34,990 bases of DNA from a virus: IMG/VR virus record IMGVR_UViG_3300033571_022641, positions 1-34,990 of that record, one strand, 5' to 3'. Shown in pieces: positions 1,683-21,845 of this stretch (position 1 is the stretch's first letter; every line of letters starts with the position of its first letter). The notes under the pieces were generated by a model. It was not told where the DNA came from. It ran no database searches and saw only the letters and a program-made list of their open reading frames with translations. The translations under genes and the position numbers were made by a program.

Positions 1683-3701
1683 TTAACGATTGAATTTGTT
1701 TGCTAATTGACTTGCTATGTTTGCAACGAAATCGCTGTTATATCCCAAGTCATTAGCGTTACCTACATCAAACTTATTATTTACTGACTCATTAAGATTT
1801 ACAGTCTTGCCTTTCATTTGATCAAGACCTCTTGTTGACCAGAAATTTTTAATTTGATATGCCGTATCCAAACGATACATTTTAGATTGTGCAACGATGC
1901 GATTCTTTTCATCTGTATTCATAGATTCCCAAATTGGAGCAAATTCTACAGGCATTTCCTGTATCCATTTTGGAGCACCATTACTAGATGTTGTCAATGC
2001 ATTATTCCAAATTCTAATAATATCGCTTTCGCCAAACCAAACACTCTCATTCAACGCTTTGACGACCTTTTGTTTTTTAGTTTCATCAAGAGCAAGGAAA
2101 TCGTTTTGTCTAGATTCACTCAAGAGTGACATGAATTGATAGTTATTCTTTTTAGCTACGGCTTCTACCTTTTGTTTTCTGACAGATTCCAATATAGCAT
2201 CAATTCTCTCATCGAGTGGTCTATCTTGATTTATATTTAAAGATGTGTTTTCATTAATTGATTCATTTACAGATTCATTTACAGATTCATTTACTGGATT
2301 TGTATTTTCAACAAAACCACCATTAATACTTTCTGCTACATATTCAGTATAACGAATAGTATTTTCTAAATGCTCAGACAAATAATCATTGTGTTGAATT
2401 GATTTATCCAATGTTTCTGCTAAGTAGTTTGAATACTTTTGTGTATTATCTACATTTTCAGCAATATAATCAGCATATTGTAAACCAATATCTAATTTCT
2501 CTGAAAGATAATTTGAATAACGGATGTTCTTATCTAAATTTTGTGCCAAATAATCTGAATAATTTTGTGATTTATTAAGATTTTCAGCCAAATAGTTTGA
2601 ATATTGAATACCTTTATCCAAGTTTTCAGCAATATATTCTGTGTAACGAATAGCTTCGTTAGTTTTCTTCGCTTGAACTTCAACTTCTTCACCAACATGT
2701 TCAGTATATTGGATACTCTTATCCAAACTTTCTGCCAAATAGTTAGTGTATTTTTGTGTTCTTTCAACATGTTCAGCAATATGCTCTGAGTAATTAATTG
2801 AATTATTTACATTTTCAGCAATATAATTACTATAATCACGAACACTTTGGGTATTTTCCGCAAGATAATTCGAGTATTCAATGACTTGATCAAGTTTTTC
2901 TGCCAAGTAATTAATATACTTAGTCATACGCTCAAACTCTGTTAAGAAATTCGCCGAAGTTTCGGATACATTTCCAGTCTTCATCTCATCGAGACGCTTT
3001 GTGATTCTCTCGAATTCTTTACGGATCTCTTTTGAGTAGTCATTCAAGACTTCCTCGGTTACATAATGATCCATTTTAGAAGGTTGATTTTTAGATTGCG
3101 GTTCTAGATTATCAATAGCATCTTCGACACTCGCATATTTTGAACTCATATCATAAATATTGATTGATTCGTTTGTAAATCCCAAAGATTCATTCAATCT
3201 TGAGAGTTGTGCATTTGCAAATCCAGGATCTGCAACAAGGTCATATGTAAAAATTCTTTTAATTTTTACAGATTTATCGGATTCAACGACACCAGCTGCT
3301 CTTGATGAAATTGACAATTGAACACCATCATCAATTAAAGCACGAGCATCTTTACCTGAACGTGTAGATAAAAGACGAACCTTACCAACAACTTGTCTTT
3401 TGCCATTATCATATTCAAGACTTTCAATAAGATGTGAAGCTTGTGATAAACGAACTTCAAAGTCTTGAGGATGATCCAATTGACCAGTAAGATTACCTAG
3501 TTTGATTTTCTCTTGTAGATAATCTAAATGTGGAAGGTATTCCTTTTCTTCATAAATTCTTCGGTTATTATTCTCAACGCCAAATTGACAGAATACACCT
3601 TCTAAGATATATCTATCATTTTCTTTGTCTTTAACCTGTAATTTATGATTGCTATTTTCAACAATCAGAACAACTTTTTGTCCATCGAGTGTCATATCCA
3701 T
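1683..3701 (-). CDS. 21: Prohead protease fused to scaffold-like repeat region (gp21 type)
   Basis: 672 residues. Residues about 28-165 form a T4 gp21-type prohead serine protease: NNNRRIY at 44-50, the His motif GQLDHP at 73-78 (His77) and the Ser motif SISSRA at 130-135. The protease cleaves scaffold and capsid precursors inside the prohead. Residues 262-464 hold fourteen tandem repeats of mostly 14 residues of the type YSNYLAENLDKSIQ, predicted helical and coiled-coil, followed by an NESV-rich linker (471-485) and a C-terminal domain (about 500-670). In T4 protease and scaffold (gp21, gp22) are separate genes; a fusion is inferred here because the repeat region looks like a core scaffold. 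LNES sites at 169-172, 550-553 and 636-639 lie at the domain borders and could be self-cleavage sites. It lies just upstream of gp23. A second ATG at 3695 is an alternative start. The protease call is strong; the scaffold role is inference. Confidence 0.85.
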   Translation of the reverse strand: MDMTLDGQKVVLIVENSNHKLQVKDKENDRYILEGVFCQFGVENNNRRIYEEKEYLPHLDYLQEKIKLGNLTGQLDHPQDFEVRLSQASHLIESLEYDNGKRQVVGKVRLLSTRSGKDARALIDDGVQLSISSRAAGVVESDKSVKIKRIFTYDLVADPGFANAQLSRLNESLGFTNESINIYDMSSKYASVEDAIDNLEPQSKNQPSKMDHYVTEEVLNDYSKEIRKEFERITKRLDEMKTGNVSETSANFLTEFERMTKYINYLAEKLDQVIEYSNYLAENTQSVRDYSNYIAENVNNSINYSEHIAEHVERTQKYTNYLAESLDKSIQYTEHVGEEVEVQAKKTNEAIRYTEYIAENLDKGIQYSNYLAENLNKSQNYSDYLAQNLDKNIRYSNYLSEKLDIGLQYADYIAENVDNTQKYSNYLAETLDKSIQHNDYLSEHLENTIRYTEYVAESINGGFVENTNPVNESVNESVNESINENTSLNINQDRPLDERIDAILESVRKQKVEAVAKKNNYQFMSLLSESRQNDFLALDETKKQKVVKALNESVWFGESDIIRIWNNALTTSSNGAPKWIQEMPVEFAPIWESMNTDEKNRIVAQSKMYRLDTAYQIKNFWSTRGLDQMKGKTVNLNESVNNKFDVGNANDLGYNSDFVANIASQLANKFNR
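2310..2918 (-). repeat. Fourteen tandem 42-bp coding repeats (14-residue coiled-coil units)
   Basis: Residues 262-464 of the protease-scaffold fusion are built of units beginning Y(S/T)xY(L/I)AE, thirteen of 14 residues and one of 21 residues (332-352). At DNA level this is an imperfect 42-bp period. Fourteen residues equal two heptads, so the array could form a long regular rod. Copies have diverged at third positions and at surface residues, so the array is old rather than a recent expansion. Confidence 0.9.
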
Positions 3702-4775: not shown

Positions 4776-4783
4776 CTATATAT
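4776..4783 (-). promoter_or_regulatory. Putative late promoter ATATATAG overlapping a stop codon
   Basis: The minus-strand octamer ATATATAG ends with the TAG stop codon of the upstream glycosyltransferase gene and lies 20 bp before the lysozyme start. The final Asn-Ile codons and stop are thus shared with the promoter-like element. Confidence 0.45.
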
Positions 4784-5507
4784 TCAGAATTTTAGTTGAA
4801 AATTGAAAATGTTTATCCCATTCTTCTTTTATTCTACAAGGATATTGATAATTATGACCCCATTTTCTTTCTTTATTGATTTGACTTAATCTTTTTTCAT
4901 ACAACTTTCGTCTTTCTTCTAATCTTTCAAGGCCGCCTATATTTTTACAATGTAGTAATTTTAATGAAGGATATTTATCATATACTATAGCCCCAGATGG
5001 AAAACATGCATGGCAACCATGTTTGAATCCGATTTCTTCTATAAGACTTGGATCAAAAATTGGTGTTTTGTCATACCATGTATCTCGCATTCCCTTTGTT
5101 ATTTCAGTCCATATTGGTTTATTTGAATCAGGTAATGTTTCAGACCACATAGAAAATCCAGTTGTCTGAGGTATACTTATTCCCTTTCTTTTACATGATA
5201 TTAAAAATGATTCTAAATCTGGGTGATAAATAAATTCATCTAGATCTAATACACAAACCCAATCATAATCTCTGAATTCTTTCCAAGCATTATTTTTAAT
5301 ATCTAAATAAACATCGTCCCTAATTTCACCGTTTGTATCATAAACTCTTCTTTCTACCAAGGGATGTTCATCACATATTTTAGCAGTTTCATCATCAGAT
5401 TGATTGTCATAGACAATAATTTTTTCGCAAAATTTTTCATAATGATTTAAAAATATTGGCATTAATGCTTGTTCATTCCAAGCAATTGTAATACATACCA
5501 TCTTCAT
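4776..5507 (-). CDS. Glycosyltransferase, GT-A fold, family 2/92-like
   Basis: 243 residues. The N-terminus has VCITIAWNE (4-12) and IIVYDNQSDDET (30-41), the nucleotide-sugar binding start of GT2/GT92 enzymes, and VLDLDEF at 86-92 supplies the Asp-x-Asp metal site. A His/Cys-containing block with FKHGCHACFPSGA in the second half is typical of GT92-like (DUF23) enzymes found in polysaccharide loci. It should transfer a sugar from an NDP-sugar to an unknown acceptor. Its start overlaps the stop of the upstream gene in an ATGA junction (5504-5507), so the two are translationally coupled. It ends a run of four glycosyltransferase genes. Enzyme class is secure; donor and acceptor are unknown. Confidence 0.8.
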   Translation of the reverse strand: MKMVCITIAWNEQALMPIFLNHYEKFCEKIIVYDNQSDDETAKICDEHPLVERRVYDTNGEIRDDVYLDIKNNAWKEFRDYDWVCVLDLDEFIYHPDLESFLISCKRKGISIPQTTGFSMWSETLPDSNKPIWTEITKGMRDTWYDKTPIFDPSLIEEIGFKHGCHACFPSGAIVYDKYPSLKLLHCKNIGGLERLEERRKLYEKRLSQINKERKWGHNYQYPCRIKEEWDKHFQFSTKILNI

Positions 5508-5998
5508 GGTAATTTACCTGTATGTTTAAGAATTATGTATTCTACATATTCTTCAGAATCTTTTTGATCTCTAATTAAATTTTCCCAGCTTTCTTTAAAA
5601 TAAAAAGGTACTGGATGAATTCCTATATTAATCCATAATCCAATACACATGTTTTCTTCTTCATCTTCTACACAATCACCGACACTATGACTTATATCTA
5701 AAGAAATAAGTGCTTCAAATATCAGTTCCATAGCTTTTGCTATTTCTTTAAATGTTGCTTCTAAATCATCTCCAGCGAAATGTATAGTATCTATCACTGA
5801 AACTACATAATCATCTGGGTCTACTCCTTCATCTATTATAGCTTGTTCAGCAGTTTTTAAGTCTAATTCAAATTCTTCAACACCTAATAGATTAATTATA
5901 AGTGTTGGATTACCATCTTCATCTTCACTTTTAATATAAACACCTGACCCCCATTTATTATTAAAAGCTTCAATTATGTAATCTGAAACATCTATCAT
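5504..5998 (-). CDS. Small acidic protein of unknown function in the glycosyltransferase cluster
   Basis: 164 residues from the ATG at 5998, which is preceded by GGAGAACATA and so has a good ribosome binding site; a longer reading would need a TTG that lies inside that site. I do not recognise the protein. It is acidic (many Asp/Glu, for example KSEDEDGNP near the N-terminus and EDEEENM in the middle) with alternating strand and helix character and no membrane segment. It overlaps the upstream glycosyltransferase by one base (TAATG) and the downstream one by four (ATGA), so all three are coupled in translation, which suggests a shared job, for example as an accessory protein. Confidence 0.7.
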   Translation of the reverse strand: MIDVSDYIIEAFNNKWGSGVYIKSEDEDGNPTLIINLLGVEEFELDLKTAEQAIIDEGVDPDDYVVSVIDTIHFAGDDLEATFKEIAKAMELIFEALISLDISHSVGDCVEDEEENMCIGLWINIGIHPVPFYFKESWENLIRDQKDSEEYVEYIILKHTGKLP

Positions 5999-6696
5999 TA
6001 TGTTCTCCAATTTAATGTATCCAAAACATTATTTCTATTATTAACATCATTTGATATGTGATAAACCCATTCAGTCTGATATTGTAAATTTTGTGGATAC
6101 ATATAGTTCCAGCATTCTTCAGAATATTCAAAAAATGTATCATTCATATCAGGCGATATACATCTTGCTGCATAATTAAACAGGGCTTGTTCATAAATTG
6201 CATTAAATCTATCATAATTCAATTCTGGCATAATACATCTTACCATATGACATAATCTTCTGAAAGTAGAAATATCAGCTAGCATAAAGCCTGTATTAAA
6301 ATACATATCTGGTCTTTCTATTATATTCAACATTTGTTGTTGTTGATTAATTCTTAAAAGATTATATGTATGTTGATTTAATGTATTTTGGTAATTACCT
6401 ATTCTCTCATTACCATTTTGAACTGCCCTCAATTTATTAGGAACAATCAAAGTAAAAGGAGTCGGTGTGTCTTGTCTAATTATGCAATCAGCATCGAAAA
6501 ATGCTACTTGATCATAATCCTTTACAATATGGTCAATATAAGCTTTTGTAAAGGTTATACCAAAAGAATCACCTAATATATTTTGATCGAATGAAATAAA
6601 ATCAGCATCCCATCTTTTAGATGCTTCAATCATCGAATCTTTAGAGTTTTGACTTTGGAAATCATTTATATCAATTGTTAAGACTACTCTTTTCAT
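5998..6696 (-). CDS. Glycosyltransferase, GT-A fold, GT8-like, paralogue of 6693-7421
   Basis: 232 residues from the ATG at 6696; this start has GGAGATC nine bases upstream, whereas the TTG twelve bases further up overlaps that site. The Asp-x-Asp motif is DAD at 68-70 in VAFFDADCIIRQDTPTPF, followed by a central segment with FNTGFMLADIS, the layout of GT8-like galactosyltransferase-type enzymes. It shares with its upstream neighbour the pattern of an N-terminal strand, RW-D at about 29-30, the DxD block followed by DTP-PF, ALFNY, an aromatic WNY and a closing H-containing segment, so the pair arose by tandem duplication. It overlaps that neighbour in an ATGA junction. Donor and acceptor are unknown. 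Confidence 0.8.
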   Translation of the reverse strand: MKRVVLTIDINDFQSQNSKDSMIEASKRWDADFISFDQNILGDSFGITFTKAYIDHIVKDYDQVAFFDADCIIRQDTPTPFTLIVPNKLRAVQNGNERIGNYQNTLNQHTYNLLRINQQQQMLNIIERPDMYFNTGFMLADISTFRRLCHMVRCIMPELNYDRFNAIYEQALFNYAARCISPDMNDTFFEYSEECWNYMYPQNLQYQTEWVYHISNDVNNRNNVLDTLNWRT

Positions 6697-7421
6697 TTTG
6701 ATCTCCAATCATAATCTTTTATGGTGTCTTTTATTTTCCAAAAGTTATATCCTGTAAAATGCCAGACATAACTATTCATTCTAGGTTCTTCAATAGGAGG
6801 CTCTAAATAATTCCAAGATTCATTTATAATAGTTAGATCATTCGGACGTATTCCCTGAACAATATAATTAAATAAAGCTTGTTCATAATGTGCAGAAAAA
6901 GAAAATATCTCTCGACCATCTGTTAAGGGAAGTGCTTGAGATATAGCTTTAAAAATAGACTTATGCCTTTTGGTAGAACATAAGAAAAATCCTGAATTGA
7001 AGAATTTATCTAAAAAGATTTCTCTAGATATATTCCATCCAAATTGTTGTTCTAGTATATTATAATAATACTCTTGATTATTATTCTTTACATTAAACCA
7101 CATCTCTTCATCCTTTTTATATCTTTGTGGATGAATGTCTAATGTAGCATAAAATTTATTTTCATCTGAAAAAACTTCAAAAGGATTAGGCGTATCAATA
7201 TGAATCAGCATATCAGAATCAAAATATACAGCCCTTTCGTAACCTTCTATTTTTTCAAATGAACATATTTTAGCAAAAGATGGATATAATCTAGTGTCAA
7301 ATATTGTTCGTATTTCTAAATAGTCACATCCCCATCTATCAGCAGCGTGAGAAATAGATTCTCTAGCATTAGATGACATGTGATTATTTATATTTACTGT
7401 CCAAACAAGATTCTTACTCAT
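6693..7421 (-). CDS. Glycosyltransferase, GT-A fold, GT8-like, paralogue of 5998-6696
   Basis: 242 residues. The metal site is DSD at 68-70 in AVYFDSDMLIHIDTPNPF. FNSGFFLCSTKRH and HYEQALFNYIVQGIRP in the middle and WNYLEPP with YVWHFTGYN near the end are the GT8-like blocks that also occur in the downstream paralogue. It probably transfers a sugar from an NDP-sugar. The stop codon of the upstream gene (7422-7424) directly abuts this start, and GGAG lies about eleven bases before the ATG, inside the upstream gene. The substrate is unknown. Confidence 0.8.
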   Translation of the reverse strand: MSKNLVWTVNINNHMSSNARESISHAADRWGCDYLEIRTIFDTRLYPSFAKICSFEKIEGYERAVYFDSDMLIHIDTPNPFEVFSDENKFYATLDIHPQRYKKDEEMWFNVKNNNQEYYYNILEQQFGWNISREIFLDKFFNSGFFLCSTKRHKSIFKAISQALPLTDGREIFSFSAHYEQALFNYIVQGIRPNDLTIINESWNYLEPPIEEPRMNSYVWHFTGYNFWKIKDTIKDYDWRSK

Positions 7422-8039
7422 TTAGATATGAACTCCAAGAACTTTTTCAACTCTTACATGTCTAAACTCTTTTGAAAGAGCTTCATATGTATAACCATCA
7501 GAATAAAACCCTTGCTCTGCTACCCAACCTATCTTTTCAATAGCTTCTCTTTTTACAACAACTTGTAATGTATCTATACCACCAACAACTATCGGCCAAC
7601 CTGTAAGAACTTGAGGCGGTTTACCTACCCACGCTTGAAGTGGACCCATATGGAGAATCTGACATACAGCAAATCCTACATCTGAATCTGTACCTTCCAA
7701 TGCACCTACCATCTCTTCAAGGAATTCTGGAAACATTACATTATCATCATCTAAGAATGCAATGTATTTCCCATTTAACATAGGCATAGCAAGTTTTCTT
7801 ACCGATGCACCATAATCAGCATGATTCTCTTCTAATTCTATAAATTGTCTTTTAGGATCATCTTTTGATTTTACTGAAAAATATTCACGCAAAACTGGAT
7901 CAGGTCCATCTGAAACAATAACATGTTCCCAATCTTGAAATGATTGCCAATTAACACAAGCCATGCAACGATTCAGCATTTTTATCCCTCTATTCCAAGT
8001 GGGAGTTAAAACGCTTATTGTTGGGTTTTTCTTTTTCAT
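7422..8039 (-). CDS. Glycosyltransferase family 2 protein
   Basis: 205 residues covering a single GT-A domain. ISVLTPTWNRG at 8-18 is the classic GT2 N-terminus, VIVSDGP at about 40-46 the donor site, and IAFLDDDNVMFPEFLEEM the DxD metal-binding block. At 205 residues it is near the minimum for a GT2 catalytic domain and lacks a long C-terminal acceptor domain. AAGAGA precedes the ATG. It is the first gene of the four-glycosyltransferase run and is separated by 36 bp from the methyltransferase-like gene, with no terminator between them. Confidence 0.85.
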   Translation of the reverse strand: MKKKNPTISVLTPTWNRGIKMLNRCMACVNWQSFQDWEHVIVSDGPDPVLREYFSVKSKDDPKRQFIELEENHADYGASVRKLAMPMLNGKYIAFLDDDNVMFPEFLEEMVGALEGTDSDVGFAVCQILHMGPLQAWVGKPPQVLTGWPIVVGGIDTLQVVVKREAIEKIGWVAEQGFYSDGYTYEALSKEFRHVRVEKVLGVHI

Positions 8040-8075: not shown

Positions 8076-9386
8076 TTATTTAGTAAAGTTCAATCCGTTA
8101 TCAATAAAAATTTTAGCAGTTTTATTAACATTACTCTGTTTTATAGATTTTAAAATTTCTCTACCTATTCTTTGTGCAACATTTACATTAGTAGCTCTGC
8201 CCATTAATATCCAGCTTGTTCGCCATCCCAGTGCAACTTTATATTCTTCAGGAAATCCTTGTAATCTACATAACTCTCTGGGAGAAAGTCTTCTTAAGAA
8301 CTCATCATTTACCCTTTGTCCAGTTTCTAAAAATTCTGGAGCGTTTATTTCATCATATATTAAATTCCTATCCCATCCTTGTCCACCAAATGAAATAGAT
8401 TTAGATTCTCGTTCTGGATCTAAAATAATAGATGTATATTGATATCCCCTATCAAGATTTTTCTTATTCATTTTATTTAAATAATCTAAATGAGTCTGAG
8501 TTAAGTAAAGATTTGGATTAGGATTATTTTCTAAAATATCCTTTAGCTTCCAAACTCTTTTTTCAGGTTTTGGCCAATTGAAAGTTAAAGCAGACAGTGG
8601 ATTAGCAAATGCTACTATCCACACTCTTTTTCTTAATTGCGGTACTCCATAATCAAGTGCATTAAGAAATGATGGGTTTACTACATAGTATCCAGTTTCT
8701 TCTTTTAATGTACGACAAGCAACTGCTGTAGAAACCTCTAAAGATTCATCTCTTTGAGTTTTTCTACATTCTATCATTATTGCTTCTGGTTGTAGTTTAT
8801 TTATTAATTGTAATAAAAGATACCAGTTAGTATCTGTCATCTTATCAGCCTTAGGCTTAATACCTTTGTTCAAAGGTAAAGATTCAATATTAACTGAAGA
8901 CGTTAGTACATCTACTTTGGGGAAATTACCATGATAATTATCTATATTAGTAAAAGGTATGACACCAAAATTTGAATAGTATGATTTTATAAAACTAGTA
9001 TGCTCATATTTATCTTCAAATGCAAATGTACACGCTCCACCCTCTTTCATTAAAGCTACCGTAGCTCCACCAGAATTACAAAATATATCAGCAAACTTGA
9101 AATTAAAATGTTCAGGAGGAGGAATAGGTATATCATAATCTATTAAAGTTTTATCTTTAATACATTCATTCAATATCCTTTTGAAACTTGTACTGATTTT
9201 TGATCTTTTTATTATTTGTATAATGTCATCAAAATACAATACTTCCTCATTAGATATAGCTCTTGAAAATAAATGGGTTATTGCAGAAGCATGAGATGTG
9301 TATCTTTTACGAGTTCCTCTAGAAAATTTTTCTATATCTGGAATTTTCCATTTTAAATCTTCAAAGATTTTTTTCAAGGAATACAT
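8076..9386 (-). CDS. Cytosine-C5 DNA methyltransferase homologue lacking the catalytic Pro-Cys motif
   Basis: 436 residues. Residues about 96-415 follow the order of cytosine-C5 methyltransferases: motif I DIFCNSGG at 100-107 (usually D-L-F-A-G-x-G-G), the acidic FED at 122-125 for AdoMet, motif VIII GVPQLRKRVW at 247-256, motif IX RRLSPRELCRLQGFP at 365-379 and motif X NVNVAQRIGREI at 400-411. Where motif IV should read GGFPCQ-FS the protein has LTSSVNIESL (161-170), and no Pro-Cys pair occurs anywhere. Motif VI ENV is ECR at 206-208, keeping only the Glu. The usual Cys-attack mechanism is therefore not available. Residues 1-95 are an unrecognised extension. It could be a pseudoenzyme that binds DNA, or an enzyme with different chemistry. 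The frame is intact over 436 codons, so this is not simple decay. AAGGTGG precedes the ATG. Confidence 0.85.
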   Translation of the reverse strand: MYSLKKIFEDLKWKIPDIEKFSRGTRKRYTSHASAITHLFSRAISNEEVLYFDDIIQIIKRSKISTSFKRILNECIKDKTLIDYDIPIPPPEHFNFKFADIFCNSGGATVALMKEGGACTFAFEDKYEHTSFIKSYYSNFGVIPFTNIDNYHGNFPKVDVLTSSVNIESLPLNKGIKPKADKMTDTNWYLLLQLINKLQPEAIMIECRKTQRDESLEVSTAVACRTLKEETGYYVVNPSFLNALDYGVPQLRKRVWIVAFANPLSALTFNWPKPEKRVWKLKDILENNPNPNLYLTQTHLDYLNKMNKKNLDRGYQYTSIILDPERESKSISFGGQGWDRNLIYDEINAPEFLETGQRVNDEFLRRLSPRELCRLQGFPEEYKVALGWRTSWILMGRATNVNVAQRIGREILKSIKQSNVNKTAKIFIDNGLNFTK

Positions 9387-9665
9387 TTACCACCTTGGCT
9401 CAGATAGGGGACATTTTGTTAATGTTAATCTAGCTTTAGCTTTAATAAAACAACCACAAGCCATACAACGCTCTTTTACAGGGTCTCTATAATTACATGA
9501 TCTACAAATTTCAACTCTTTGTAAATATAATGGATCTGTATCTGATAGTATATGAGATTGATGCTTGGGTTCAGATACCGTATTAGTTACTGTCTGTGTA
9601 GTTTCTGATAATTTAGTTGTAGTCTTAATTATATTTTCTTTTGATTTATTACAACCACATCCCAT
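9387..9665 (-). CDS. Small Cys-rich, probably zinc-binding protein
   Basis: 92 residues. The N-terminus is MGCGCNKSK and the second half has ICRSCNY, ERCMACGC and TKCPLSEPRW, giving C-x2-C, C-x2-C-x-C and a late Cys-Pro, the layout of short zinc-binding proteins common in T4-like phages. Residues 10-45 are polar and Thr/Ser-rich. No enzyme motif is visible. AAGGAG lies seven bases before the ATG, one of the best ribosome binding sites in the window. The stop codon is immediately followed by the ATG of the methyltransferase-like gene, so the two are co-transcribed and probably coupled. Function unknown. Confidence 0.7.
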   Translation of the reverse strand: MGCGCNKSKENIIKTTTKLSETTQTVTNTVSEPKHQSHILSDTDPLYLQRVEICRSCNYRDPVKERCMACGCFIKAKARLTLTKCPLSEPRW

Positions 9666-9692: not shown

Positions 9693-10958
9693 TTATAAAA
9701 CTAACCAACGACCTTGAGCACCTGCGGTTGAAGACGAATATACAACTTTTACTGCTGCATATGGATTTATTTCTAGATCAGAACCACTTTGAGTCATTAT
9801 TCTTCTCGATGTTGCTCCAGCAGTTAGAGAATTATTTCTAACAAACATAGAATATGCTGTTTCATTAGAAATTATAATGTCTCGTCCATCTGTATTATCT
9901 GCAATACCAACCAGAGAAAAAGATGATGTAGGATTACCTCCAATTTTAGCAAATGATGTATCAGCATTAAGTGTCAGTTCTAAAGCAGTTGAATCATTTT
10001 TTGTTATATTTTGATTTACCTTTGGACAATCACAAGGTCCTTGAGGTCCTTGGACTCCCTGAAAACCTTGTGTACCTTGATCCCCTTGAGGTCCATCTGG
10101 CCCTTGATAACCTTGAAAACCTCTAGGTCCAGTTGGACCTTGTTCACCAGTCGCACCTTGAACTCCCTGTGTACCTTGAGGTCCTTGAGGTCCTTGTGGA
10201 CCTTGGTTTCCTTGATTACCTCCACCTTGATTACCCTGATTACCCTGTTGTCCTTGACGACCCTGATTACCTTGAGGTCCAATAATTCCTTGAACACCTT
10301 GTAATCCTTGAGATCCTTGAATTCCTTGAACACCCTGAATACCTTGATTCCCTTGAGGTCCATTCAAACCTTGAGGTCCCGTTCTACCTTGAAAACCTTG
10401 TCCTCCAGTTATACTAGCAGGGTATCCTTTTTCTCCTTCATATTTATATGCAGTAACCGCACATGGATTAGATATAGAAACGCCTTCTGGTAATCCATTA
10501 AAAAATGTAATGACACCTGAATTATAATTAAAAATCCAATCATTTTGTCCCAATGGGATAGGTAACCATGTTGATGTACCTATATCGTATTTCCAAACTT
10601 TTGCTTGATAATCTACTCCAAACAAACTAGGAGGAATACAATCTTTCAAATCACCAGTAGAATCATAAAACGCATTATCACTACCTTCATCAAATGTTAA
10701 AGCATATTTATGATATTTGGTAAATATTAGATCTCCTGAATCAGAATATGTTGTACCATCTGGGACAGCATCAGATTTATGAGGATTAGTTGCAGGTATT
10801 CTATCAGAATCTATCCAAAGCTGATTTGGATTAATTGGCATTACTTCTGAAAATGATTCTTCAAAATGCTCAAGACTTATATTTGTTGTAGCTTTATTAG
10901 CTTCAACTATATTATAGGTTACATGACTTTTTTGATTAGGGGTTAATCCAGTACTCAT
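9693..10958 (-). CDS. Collagen-like virion fibre protein
   Basis: 421 residues in three parts: an N-terminal domain (1-184), about forty Gly-x-Y triplets (185-308) rich in Gln at the Y position, and a C-terminal domain of about 110 residues opened by PCDCPK at 308-313. Collagen-like triplets form triple helices in phage tail and head fibres, and the C-terminal domain probably trimerises or binds the target. The GGGNQG interruption at 246-251 would put a kink in the helix. The N-terminal part, with segments such as HKYALTFDEG and TSTWLPIPLGQND, probably attaches the fibre to the particle. No Shine-Dalgarno site is seen. It is on the opposite strand from the second collagen-like gene at the right end of the window. 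Which fibre it forms is unknown. Confidence 0.85.
   Translation of the reverse strand: MSTGLTPNQKSHVTYNIVEANKATTNISLEHFEESFSEVMPINPNQLWIDSDRIPATNPHKSDAVPDGTTYSDSGDLIFTKYHKYALTFDEGSDNAFYDSTGDLKDCIPPSLFGVDYQAKVWKYDIGTSTWLPIPLGQNDWIFNYNSGVITFFNGLPEGVSISNPCAVTAYKYEGEKGYPASITGGQGFQGRTGPQGLNGPQGNQGIQGVQGIQGSQGLQGVQGIIGPQGNQGRQGQQGNQGNQGGGNQGNQGPQGPQGPQGTQGVQGATGEQGPTGPRGFQGYQGPDGPQGDQGTQGFQGVQGPQGPCDCPKVNQNITKNDSTALELTLNADTSFAKIGGNPTSSFSLVGIADNTDGRDIIISNETAYSMFVRNNSLTAGATSRRIMTQSGSDLEINPYAAVKVVYSSSTAGAQGRWLVL
10035..10406 (-). repeat. Gly-x-Gln collagen-like triplet array
   Basis: Nine-base units that encode Gly-x-Y, with Gln most often third, repeat across residues 185-308. The units are imperfect and use several x residues (Pro, Asn, Val, Ile, Thr). 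Such arrays readily change length by recombination. Confidence 0.9.
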
Positions 10959-20414: not shown

Positions 20415-21845
20415 ATGATTAATATTGAACAAAAGTCTAATAAAGTTATTATTAGTAATTTTAATGATAAAGGTATGGTAGACTTACATGAGTTCATTCT
20501 ACCTAAAAGTGAAATGTTTGAATGGCAATATTATTCAGACAAAAAGAAAGATGAAATTATTAGAAGTTGGGATAATAGACCCGTACAAAAGAAAACCGAT
20601 GTTAAAAGATTAAATCGATTCCGATTAATCGAATGGATGGAAAGTTTAAGTGAAGAAGAAAAGGAAAAAATATACGGCTTCCATCAACCAAAGAAATTCT
20701 TTTGTGATATCGAGGTTGAAATCCAGAATGAATTCCCCGATGCAAGTTTAGCAAAAACACCAGTTGTAACTATAGCGTTATCTGATGAAGATAACATTAT
20801 TACAGTTATGGGTACAAGAGAAATTGCAGCAAAGGATGTTAAGCAAACAGAACTAAAACTTCAAGAGTATTTTAAAGATTATACTCCAGATATTACATTC
20901 AAATATGTGTATTTTAATTCAGAATATGATATGCTATACACATTTTTTGTTAAGTTCTTACCTAGGATTCCATTTTTGACAGGGTGGTATTTCTTAGACT
21001 TTGACTGGAAGTATTTATTAAATAGAGCTCGGCAATTAGATATTCCTGTTGAAAAGTCTTCTTTGACCAAAAGATTATCTGGGATGCACGAAACTCCTAT
21101 GCATAAAGTTATTGTAGATTATAAAGAAATCTACGAAAAATGGGATAAGTCTCTTAAAGAAAACCTAACTTTAGATTGGACTGCGAAAAACAGATTGGGT
21201 TTAACAAAGGTTAAATACCCAGGGAGTTTAAAAGATTTATTTGTAAATGATTATTTACTTTTTGTTTTTTACAATGCAGTTGATACTCATCTAGTAAATC
21301 TTTTAGATAAGAAAACTTCAGTAGCTGATATTTTTTTTAAACTGGGTACTCTCACTAAATCTGAATACCAAAGAGCTTTTTCACCTGTACATATGACAGA
21401 AAATGTATTGTGTAGAGGTTTATTGGAAAAAAATCTAGTAATGATCCCTGAGGAAATCAAAAGAGCTAAAGATGCTAAATATAAAGGTGCACATGTTCAT
21501 AAGCCTAAAGTTGGTCTATATGAATTTGTAGGAGCATTTGACTTTGCTAGTTTGTATCCTTCAGTTATGCGCCAATTTAACATTTCTCCAGAATCATATC
21601 TTGGTCAAATAGATGATGGATCCGATGAAGAAAGTAATGATATATTCAAGACTAAAAAGGAAAAGATAGTCAATACGGAAGATAAAATAGTTTGTGCCAA
21701 TGGTGCTGTTTTTAGTAAGGAAGAAAGCGTTTTAAAAAAGGCATTGGATTATTTTTACGATAAAAGAAAAAAAGCGAAATATGAATCATATGAAGTAGAA
21801 AAGGAAATTGAAATATTGAAAAAGATATTAGAAACTAAGTCATGA
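20415..21845 (+). CDS. 43: Family B DNA polymerase, N-terminal and exonuclease part (split gp43)
   Basis: 476 residues, about half of a T4 gp43 (898). The 3'-5' exonuclease is complete: Exo I CDIE (Asp98, Glu100), Exo II TGWYFLDFD (Asp197), Exo III YNAVD (Tyr286, Asp290). Polymerase motif A follows as FDFASLYPSVM (Asp376, 375-385) with FNISPES. The protein ends in FYDKRKKAKYESYEVEKE and a Lys/Glu helix, which is the fingers domain of gp43, before motif B (K-x3-NSxYG) and motif C (DTDS). These are not found elsewhere in the window. The stop overlaps the next start as ATGA, so this is an organised gene end, not an obvious frameshift. The polymerase is probably completed by a second gene outside the window. 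Confidence 0.9.
   Translation: MINIEQKSNKVIISNFNDKGMVDLHEFILPKSEMFEWQYYSDKKKDEIIRSWDNRPVQKKTDVKRLNRFRLIEWMESLSEEEKEKIYGFHQPKKFFCDIEVEIQNEFPDASLAKTPVVTIALSDEDNIITVMGTREIAAKDVKQTELKLQEYFKDYTPDITFKYVYFNSEYDMLYTFFVKFLPRIPFLTGWYFLDFDWKYLLNRARQLDIPVEKSSLTKRLSGMHETPMHKVIVDYKEIYEKWDKSLKENLTLDWTAKNRLGLTKVKYPGSLKDLFVNDYLLFVFYNAVDTHLVNLLDKKTSVADIFFKLGTLTKSEYQRAFSPVHMTENVLCRGLLEKNLVMIPEEIKRAKDAKYKGAHVHKPKVGLYEFVGAFDFASLYPSVMRQFNISPESYLGQIDDGSDEESNDIFKTKKEKIVNTEDKIVCANGAVFSKEESVLKKALDYFYDKRKKAKYESYEVEKEIEILKKILETKS

Follow-up and report, generated by a model that had tools for sequence, protein, structure and literature searches.

Can a gene for a C5-cytosine methyltransferase that lacks its catalytic Cys still be a working gene and, if so, what does its product do? 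The locus that raises this question lies on the minus strand at positions 8076-9386 of a 34,990-base stretch of viral DNA (the window, meaning the whole stretch that was analysed), which is contained in a 199,927-bp IMG/VR record (G001) with no mismatch and one gap. An earlier note, made from the letters alone, had described an intact frame of 436 codons with a ribosome binding site, apparently under selection and adjoining glycosyltransferase genes, and had offered three roles for the product: a DNA-binding pseudoenzyme, a decoy for host restriction, or a different pyrimidine chemistry tied to the sugar-transfer genes. The frame is intact over all 436 codons from an ATG, to which we add the strand, not given before. 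The sequence AGGTGG stands just 5´ of this ATG, as part of a putative ribosome-binding site AAGGTGG at 9390-9396, and its GGTGG is kept in five of five orthologues (the 436-aa protein studied here, P0001, and those of four other phage records). All coordinates of the window given below are on the minus strand unless stated otherwise.

The predicted protein has the C5-methyltransferase fold that had been claimed for it. In a profile search, it matches PF00145 with an E value of 5.5e-35 over 324 of the 324 profile positions, and among proteins of solved structure it is closest in sequence to M.HhaI. An AF2 model built from a 63-row alignment reaches a pLDDT of 88 and a pTM of 0.90 (an input of five sequences gave a pLDDT of 54), and its top PDB match is again M.HhaI (Z 29.0, 2.6 Å, 289 residues). 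The profile match and the model agree on the Rossmann plus target recognition domain (TRD) fold of the PF00145 family, and M.HhaI (PDB 5lod, 1hmy) and the phage protein have the two-domain architecture in common.

Orthologues that are 44-56% identical and lie in the same gene order were found in four other IMG/VR phage records. We scanned viral and genome contigs with a profile of the family, with the DNA pattern GG[QK]GWD[RK]N, and with the neighbouring GT2 glycosyltransferase gene. The profile and the recognition-loop pattern gave no member beyond the five records, apart from one chance match (L034), the GT2 gene led to the same five, and none of these scans found a member with a normal motif IV. 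Two other sequences without the dipeptide PC were set aside. L044 lacks it because its frame is broken in two, and the upstream piece has it. L103 also lacks PC, yet carries Pro-Glu-Cys and belongs to an unrelated subgroup; this C5-methylase relative (L103:2992-4242) has a motif IV that reads SPECVGHS, another spelling of the catalytic motif.

Both the catalytic site and the cofactor site have been lost. Motif IV and the catalytic loop span residues 159-179 (DVLTSSVNIESLPLNKGIKPK; 8850-8912), and alignment places Asn166-Ile167 of the pseudoenzyme on Pro80-Cys81 of M.HhaI, within the motif IV sequence TSSVNIES, just as had been proposed. The Ile167 codon, at 8886-8888, thus occupies the place of the nucleophilic Cys (C81 of M.HhaI). 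This position is Ile in five of five orthologues and the preceding one is Asp or Asn in all of them, while Pro-Cys is present in all 85 aligned HpaII-type relatives. The dipeptide is absent from the entire 436-aa protein, so that no Pro-Cys loop is found elsewhere, and a loss common to all five orthologues is not chance. To express retention, we took the positions that are invariant in the 85 HpaII-type enzymes and counted those kept in five of five orthologues. None is kept in motif IV (0/7), in motifs II, III and V (0/3 each) or in motif X (0/5), which for II, III, V and X together is 0/14; the catalytic loop retains 1/11 and motif I 2/5.

The changes in the individual motifs are specific. 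In motif I (residues 96-108, FKFADIFCNSGGA; 9063-9101), which is partly kept, the first Gly has become Asn104, and N104 together with C103 is found in five of five orthologues, where every canonical relative has G and A. Motif VI (residues 202-214; 8745-8783) retains only its Glu, E206, as the earlier note had read it; the Asn-Val that should follow is lost, and T210, R212 and E214 are invariant in the family. Motif X (residues 396-404, GRATNVNVA; 8175-8201) no longer has the AdoMet-contacting Asn-Ser-Val, the canonical GNSV having become G[R/M]AT across the family, and motifs II, III and V, which complete the AdoMet site, are gone as well. In terms of M.HhaI residues, Cys81 corresponds to Ile, Gly20 to Asn, Asp60 to Asn or His, and Asn304 to Met or Arg. 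An active enzyme of this type would need the Pro-Cys nucleophile, the ENV of motif VI and, in motifs I, II, III, V and X, the residues that contact AdoMet; the phage proteins do not have this set. Alignment also brought up no convincing replacement nucleophile: the only invariant Cys are C75, C103 and C119, and C103 and C119 match Cys positions in canonical enzymes too. Methylation has almost certainly been lost, to judge from these residues, and in the most likely model AdoMet would no longer be bound in the usual way and the Cys-cytosine adduct would no longer be formed.

The other half of the protein tells a different story. Motif VIII (residues 247-256, GVPQLRKRVW; 8619-8648), which contains the counterparts of R163 and R165 of M.HhaI, is kept at three of three canonical-invariant positions in five of five orthologues, so that the QxRxR of an active C5-methyltransferase is in place. 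Motif IX (residues 364-380; 8247-8297) is largely kept, with 6/13 such positions. The core of the TRD (residues 314-346; 8349-8447), recognized by its TRD profile scores, contains ISFGGQGWDRNL, the counterpart of VGGMGRERNL in M.HpaII-type enzymes, with the GG.G..N of the recognition loop retained. Thus, where motifs I, VIII, IX and X had all been described as well kept, this holds fully for VIII, largely for IX and only partly for I, and fails for X. In M.HhaI, Glu119, Arg163 and Arg165 hold the flipped cytosine, and the equivalents of these residues and of Gln161 are present as E206, R252, R254 and Q250. Within the family, motifs I, VIII and IX have a column identity of 0.77-0.79, with 0.78 for IX, and the TRD core one of 0.73, against 0.55 overall; across AdoMet motifs II-III it is 0.40, and the pocket for the cofactor adenosine is not conserved. 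Four of the five orthologues have a core with a net charge of +5 to +8, whereas L006, at +1, is near neutral (canonical median +9). The pattern is one of cofactor and catalysis gone, with DNA and base contacts under constraint. On these grounds, we lean towards a pseudoenzyme that retains DNA binding. Its specificity may be altered or gone, since only 6/26 canonical TRD positions are unchanged in five of five orthologues.

Could this simply be a gene on its way out? The five orthologues have diverged with dN of 0.21-0.51 and saturated dS (about 1.1-1.7), without a broken frame. The gene does evolve faster than the neighbouring GT2 gene, whose orthologues are 82-87% identical, as would be seen in a gene being lost; the lysozyme-like and DUF6171 neighbours change at a similar rate, so we do not regard the gene as unusually fast-evolving. 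Five full-length intact frames at saturated synonymous divergence, the conserved ribosome-binding site and gene order, and a conserved set of non-catalytic residues make decay exceedingly improbable, and we reject it on the strength of the five intact orthologous frames. Nor did a related phage with the normal motif turn up that would make this a decaying copy; the four orthologues lack Pro-Cys as well, each having Ile in place of the Cys. The Cys-less state is an old one that purifying selection maintains, and the suspicion that the gene is selected was correct.

The gene order around it is likewise kept. Directly upstream, and ending immediately before the pseudoenzyme gene, is a 92-aa Cys-rich DUF6171-like gene (9387-9665; PF19668, E 1.3e-6), in the same order in L002, L006 and L008. 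Directly downstream, in line with the glycosyltransferase neighbours that had been noted, is a GT2 glycosyltransferase of 205 aa (7422-8039; PF00535, E 2.1e-16) in conserved order, followed by the remainder of the glycosyltransferase cluster (two GT8-like genes, a gene for a 168-aa protein and one GT2-like gene; 4776-7421), whose order is kept in the orthologous loci. In every carrier, the pseudoenzyme gene sits among late structural and glycosyltransferase genes. Beside the GT2/GT8 cluster, 9693-10958 encodes a collagen-like Gly-X-Y protein with a tail-fibre profile match, and further collagen-like Gly-X-Y proteins are found at L023:1329-2945, L024:11307-17747 and L025:1-3677; the GT2/GT8 enzymes may glycosylate the neighbouring collagen-like proteins. 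Other genes of the window include a head maturation protease (1683-3701; phrog_207, E 4e-33), whose middle part has many tandem repeats of the YSNYLAENLDK type that make up a long heptad-like stretch, and, on the plus strand, a 476-aa DNA polymerase frame (20415-21845) that matches about the first 500 of the 856 phrog_262 positions; this polymerase is split, with its second part elsewhere. Elsewhere in the record (G001), L011:8206-9798 and L011:11998-12831 encode a CTP-synthase-like protein (phrog_28378, a family with no assigned name) and a thymidylate synthase, read as a flavin-dependent ThyX type.

Where did the family come from? Its best-scoring canonical relatives are mostly methylases of Bacteroidota (24-29% identity), homologous including the N-terminal extension. 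One shared gene follows 59 of about 86 HpaII-type relatives, and the members tested are HpaII endonucleases (PF09561, E 1e-94 to 1e-142); another, weakly BsaWI-like, follows 14 of about 86. Because their neighbouring genes are HpaII endonucleases, the nearest relatives are taken to read CCGG. On the HpaII-type TRD profile, the TRDs of the pseudoenzyme family reach 35-41 bits, where HpaII-type members reach 148-182; on the Dcm-type profile the family TRDs reach 6-20, and M.HhaI scores -0.3 against the profile of the pseudoenzyme family. M.HpaII-type enzymes share full-length homology with the pseudoenzyme and have the recognition-loop signature GG.G..RNL; the pseudoenzyme differs from them by the absence of Pro-Cys, of AdoMet motifs II, III, V and X, and of ENV. 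The family forms a single clade on a very long stem (3.5), and since the tree gives it no firm placement inside the HpaII group, derivation from an M.HpaII-type (CCGG) enzyme of Bacteroidota is likely, not proven. In the most likely model, the protein diverged long ago from an orphan C5-cytosine methyltransferase, and the chance that CCGG specificity was retained along the way may be put at slightly under even. No HpaII endonuclease (PF09561) was found in the five carrier records, in a search with a control match in Bacteroides ihuae. The named phages nearest by terminase and polymerase infect Tenacibaculum, Chryseobacterium and Prevotella, which points to Bacteroidota as hosts; the carriers are probably large phages infecting these bacteria, among which HpaII-type systems are frequent.

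The specificity of the relatives led us to choose CCGG before any counting. The 199,927-bp record contains no CCGG where 59.6 would be expected from its CCG, CGG and CG, and this is the only palindromic tetramer that it lacks. The four other carriers (G002-G005, records L186-L194) likewise have none against 36 expected, or 0 against about 96 for the five records together, and CCGG is the only palindrome absent from all carriers. For comparison, viral contigs whose HpaII-type methylase is intact have 46 of 67 expected. Which other palindromes are avoided varies: GATC (2/90) and CTAG (0/55) in G005, GCGC (0/10) in G002, and CGCG in G003 (0/7) and G004 (0/4). We do not take the absence of CCGG as proof of function. 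Thirteen control phages were picked because their terminase or polymerase is related or because their hosts are Bacteroidota. Five of them (Cellulophaga phage phi14:2, LR756504, PTm1, FCL-2 and RAP44) show strong avoidance of CCGG, and none of these five has a PF00145 gene. Avoidance is thus common, also without the gene, and the CCGG-free carrier genomes may reflect only HpaII-type restriction in their hosts. Provided that CCGG specificity is kept, the target is absent from the phage's own genome, so that neither the shielding of sites nor the regulation of promoters at CCGG would take place there.

These observations bear on what the protein might do. The position of the gene among late structural genes makes its reuse as a scaffold without DNA binding, for instance as a component of the virion or for binding other proteins, the main rival explanation. 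An active CCGG methylase would have served against HpaII-type restriction until CCGG was purged from the genome, whereupon methylation became superfluous, catalysis needless, and the fold free for other use. The low number of unchanged canonical TRD positions fits with this history. Against it, the TRD core and E206, Q250, R252 and R254 are among the best-kept parts of the protein while the cofactor side has relaxed, and we consider a pure scaffold rather unlikely. As a rule, the endonuclease and the methylase of a type II system work separately, which speaks against another reading, that of an anti-restriction factor that disables host HpaII-type enzymes, by a hetero-complex or by competition for CCGG, without acting on phage DNA. 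That the relatives are HpaII-type methylases adjoining an HpaII endonuclease, in systems frequent in Bacteroidota, is in its favour, yet phages without CCGG gain nothing from disabling such an endonuclease, and the idea seems quite improbable. The earlier suggestion of a decoy for host restriction suffers for the same reason: if CCGG specificity is kept, a decoy or shield has no sites in the phage genomes to protect.

A different chemistry on a flipped pyrimidine would need a rebuilt pocket. The residues N104, T210, R212, E214, T399 and N400, newly fixed in five of five orthologues, do line the former active and cofactor site, and neither Glu206 nor the two Arg of motif VIII have been lost; the products might even feed the glycosyltransferases, as the earlier note had imagined. 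The lost nucleophile has no new Cys in its stead, the adenosine pocket lacks conservation, and there is no gene for a thymidylate-synthase-type or dCMP-hydroxymethylase protein (PF00303) in the 199,927-bp and 44,781-bp records, in a search whose control matched in nine genomes. Searches with PF12851 and PF11440 (TET/JBP oxygenase, T4-type DNA glucosyltransferase) gave no match, and their positive control matched nowhere either. With a collagen-like fibre gene next door as a more natural substrate for the GT2/GT8 enzymes, and with no second C5 methylase in the record, we regard pyrimidine modification as very unlikely.

The best explanation overall, which we hold tentatively, is a pseudomethylase that binds DNA independently of a cofactor and has its targets outside the phage's own DNA. 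Of the three roles proposed in the earlier note, this one has the best support, now strengthened by the pattern of residue loss and retention, although DNA binding itself is inferred. Such a protein would keep the fold, the base-holding residues and the DNA-recognition core, and would work by binding DNA; if CCGG is still read, its targets would be host or other foreign DNA. Action on host DNA is a doubtful further step. By analogy with engineered Cys-to-Ala methylases, tight binding there could block replication and transcription. In vivo, the Cys-less M.EcoRII-C186A is a tight binder that blocks replication forks, and expressing it at a high level is lethal (PMC4437897); catalytically inactive M.EcoRII still represses transcription with Dcm-methylated sites (PMC12707154). 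M.EcoRII-C186A shares the fold and the missing nucleophilic Cys with the phage protein and may serve as a model for tight binding and fork block, although it is an engineered single mutant with its cofactor site, whereas the phage proteins occur in nature and, besides the Cys, lack the cofactor motifs.

A natural C5-methylase pseudoenzyme kept by selection has a precedent in DNMT3L, the catalytically inactive homologue of mammalian DNMT3. DNMT3L stimulates a catalytic partner, whereas the profile search found no second PF00145 protein in the 199,927-bp record that could be the partner of the phage pseudoenzyme. The fold and the pseudoenzyme state are thus known in principle; for phages, the open-access papers searched gave no example of a C5-methylase pseudoenzyme, and in this sense the case is without a precedent that we could find.

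These phages thus encode a protein in which the nucleophile and the cofactor motifs are lost and the DNA-reading half is kept. If it binds CCGG, a CCGG-free phage could separate host from self without modifying a base. In the full form of this idea, a genome purged of CCGG is paired with a dead CCGG methylase that binds tightly, and to host or rival DNA alone, and blocks replication and transcription there, so that self and non-self are distinguished by the absence of sites; this is unlikely as a whole. Hydroxymethylcytosine in T4 is one of the known phage strategies, and a route based on site absence would complement such strategies. If true, it would also provide a tool in the form of a methylase from nature that binds tightly and does not catalyse.
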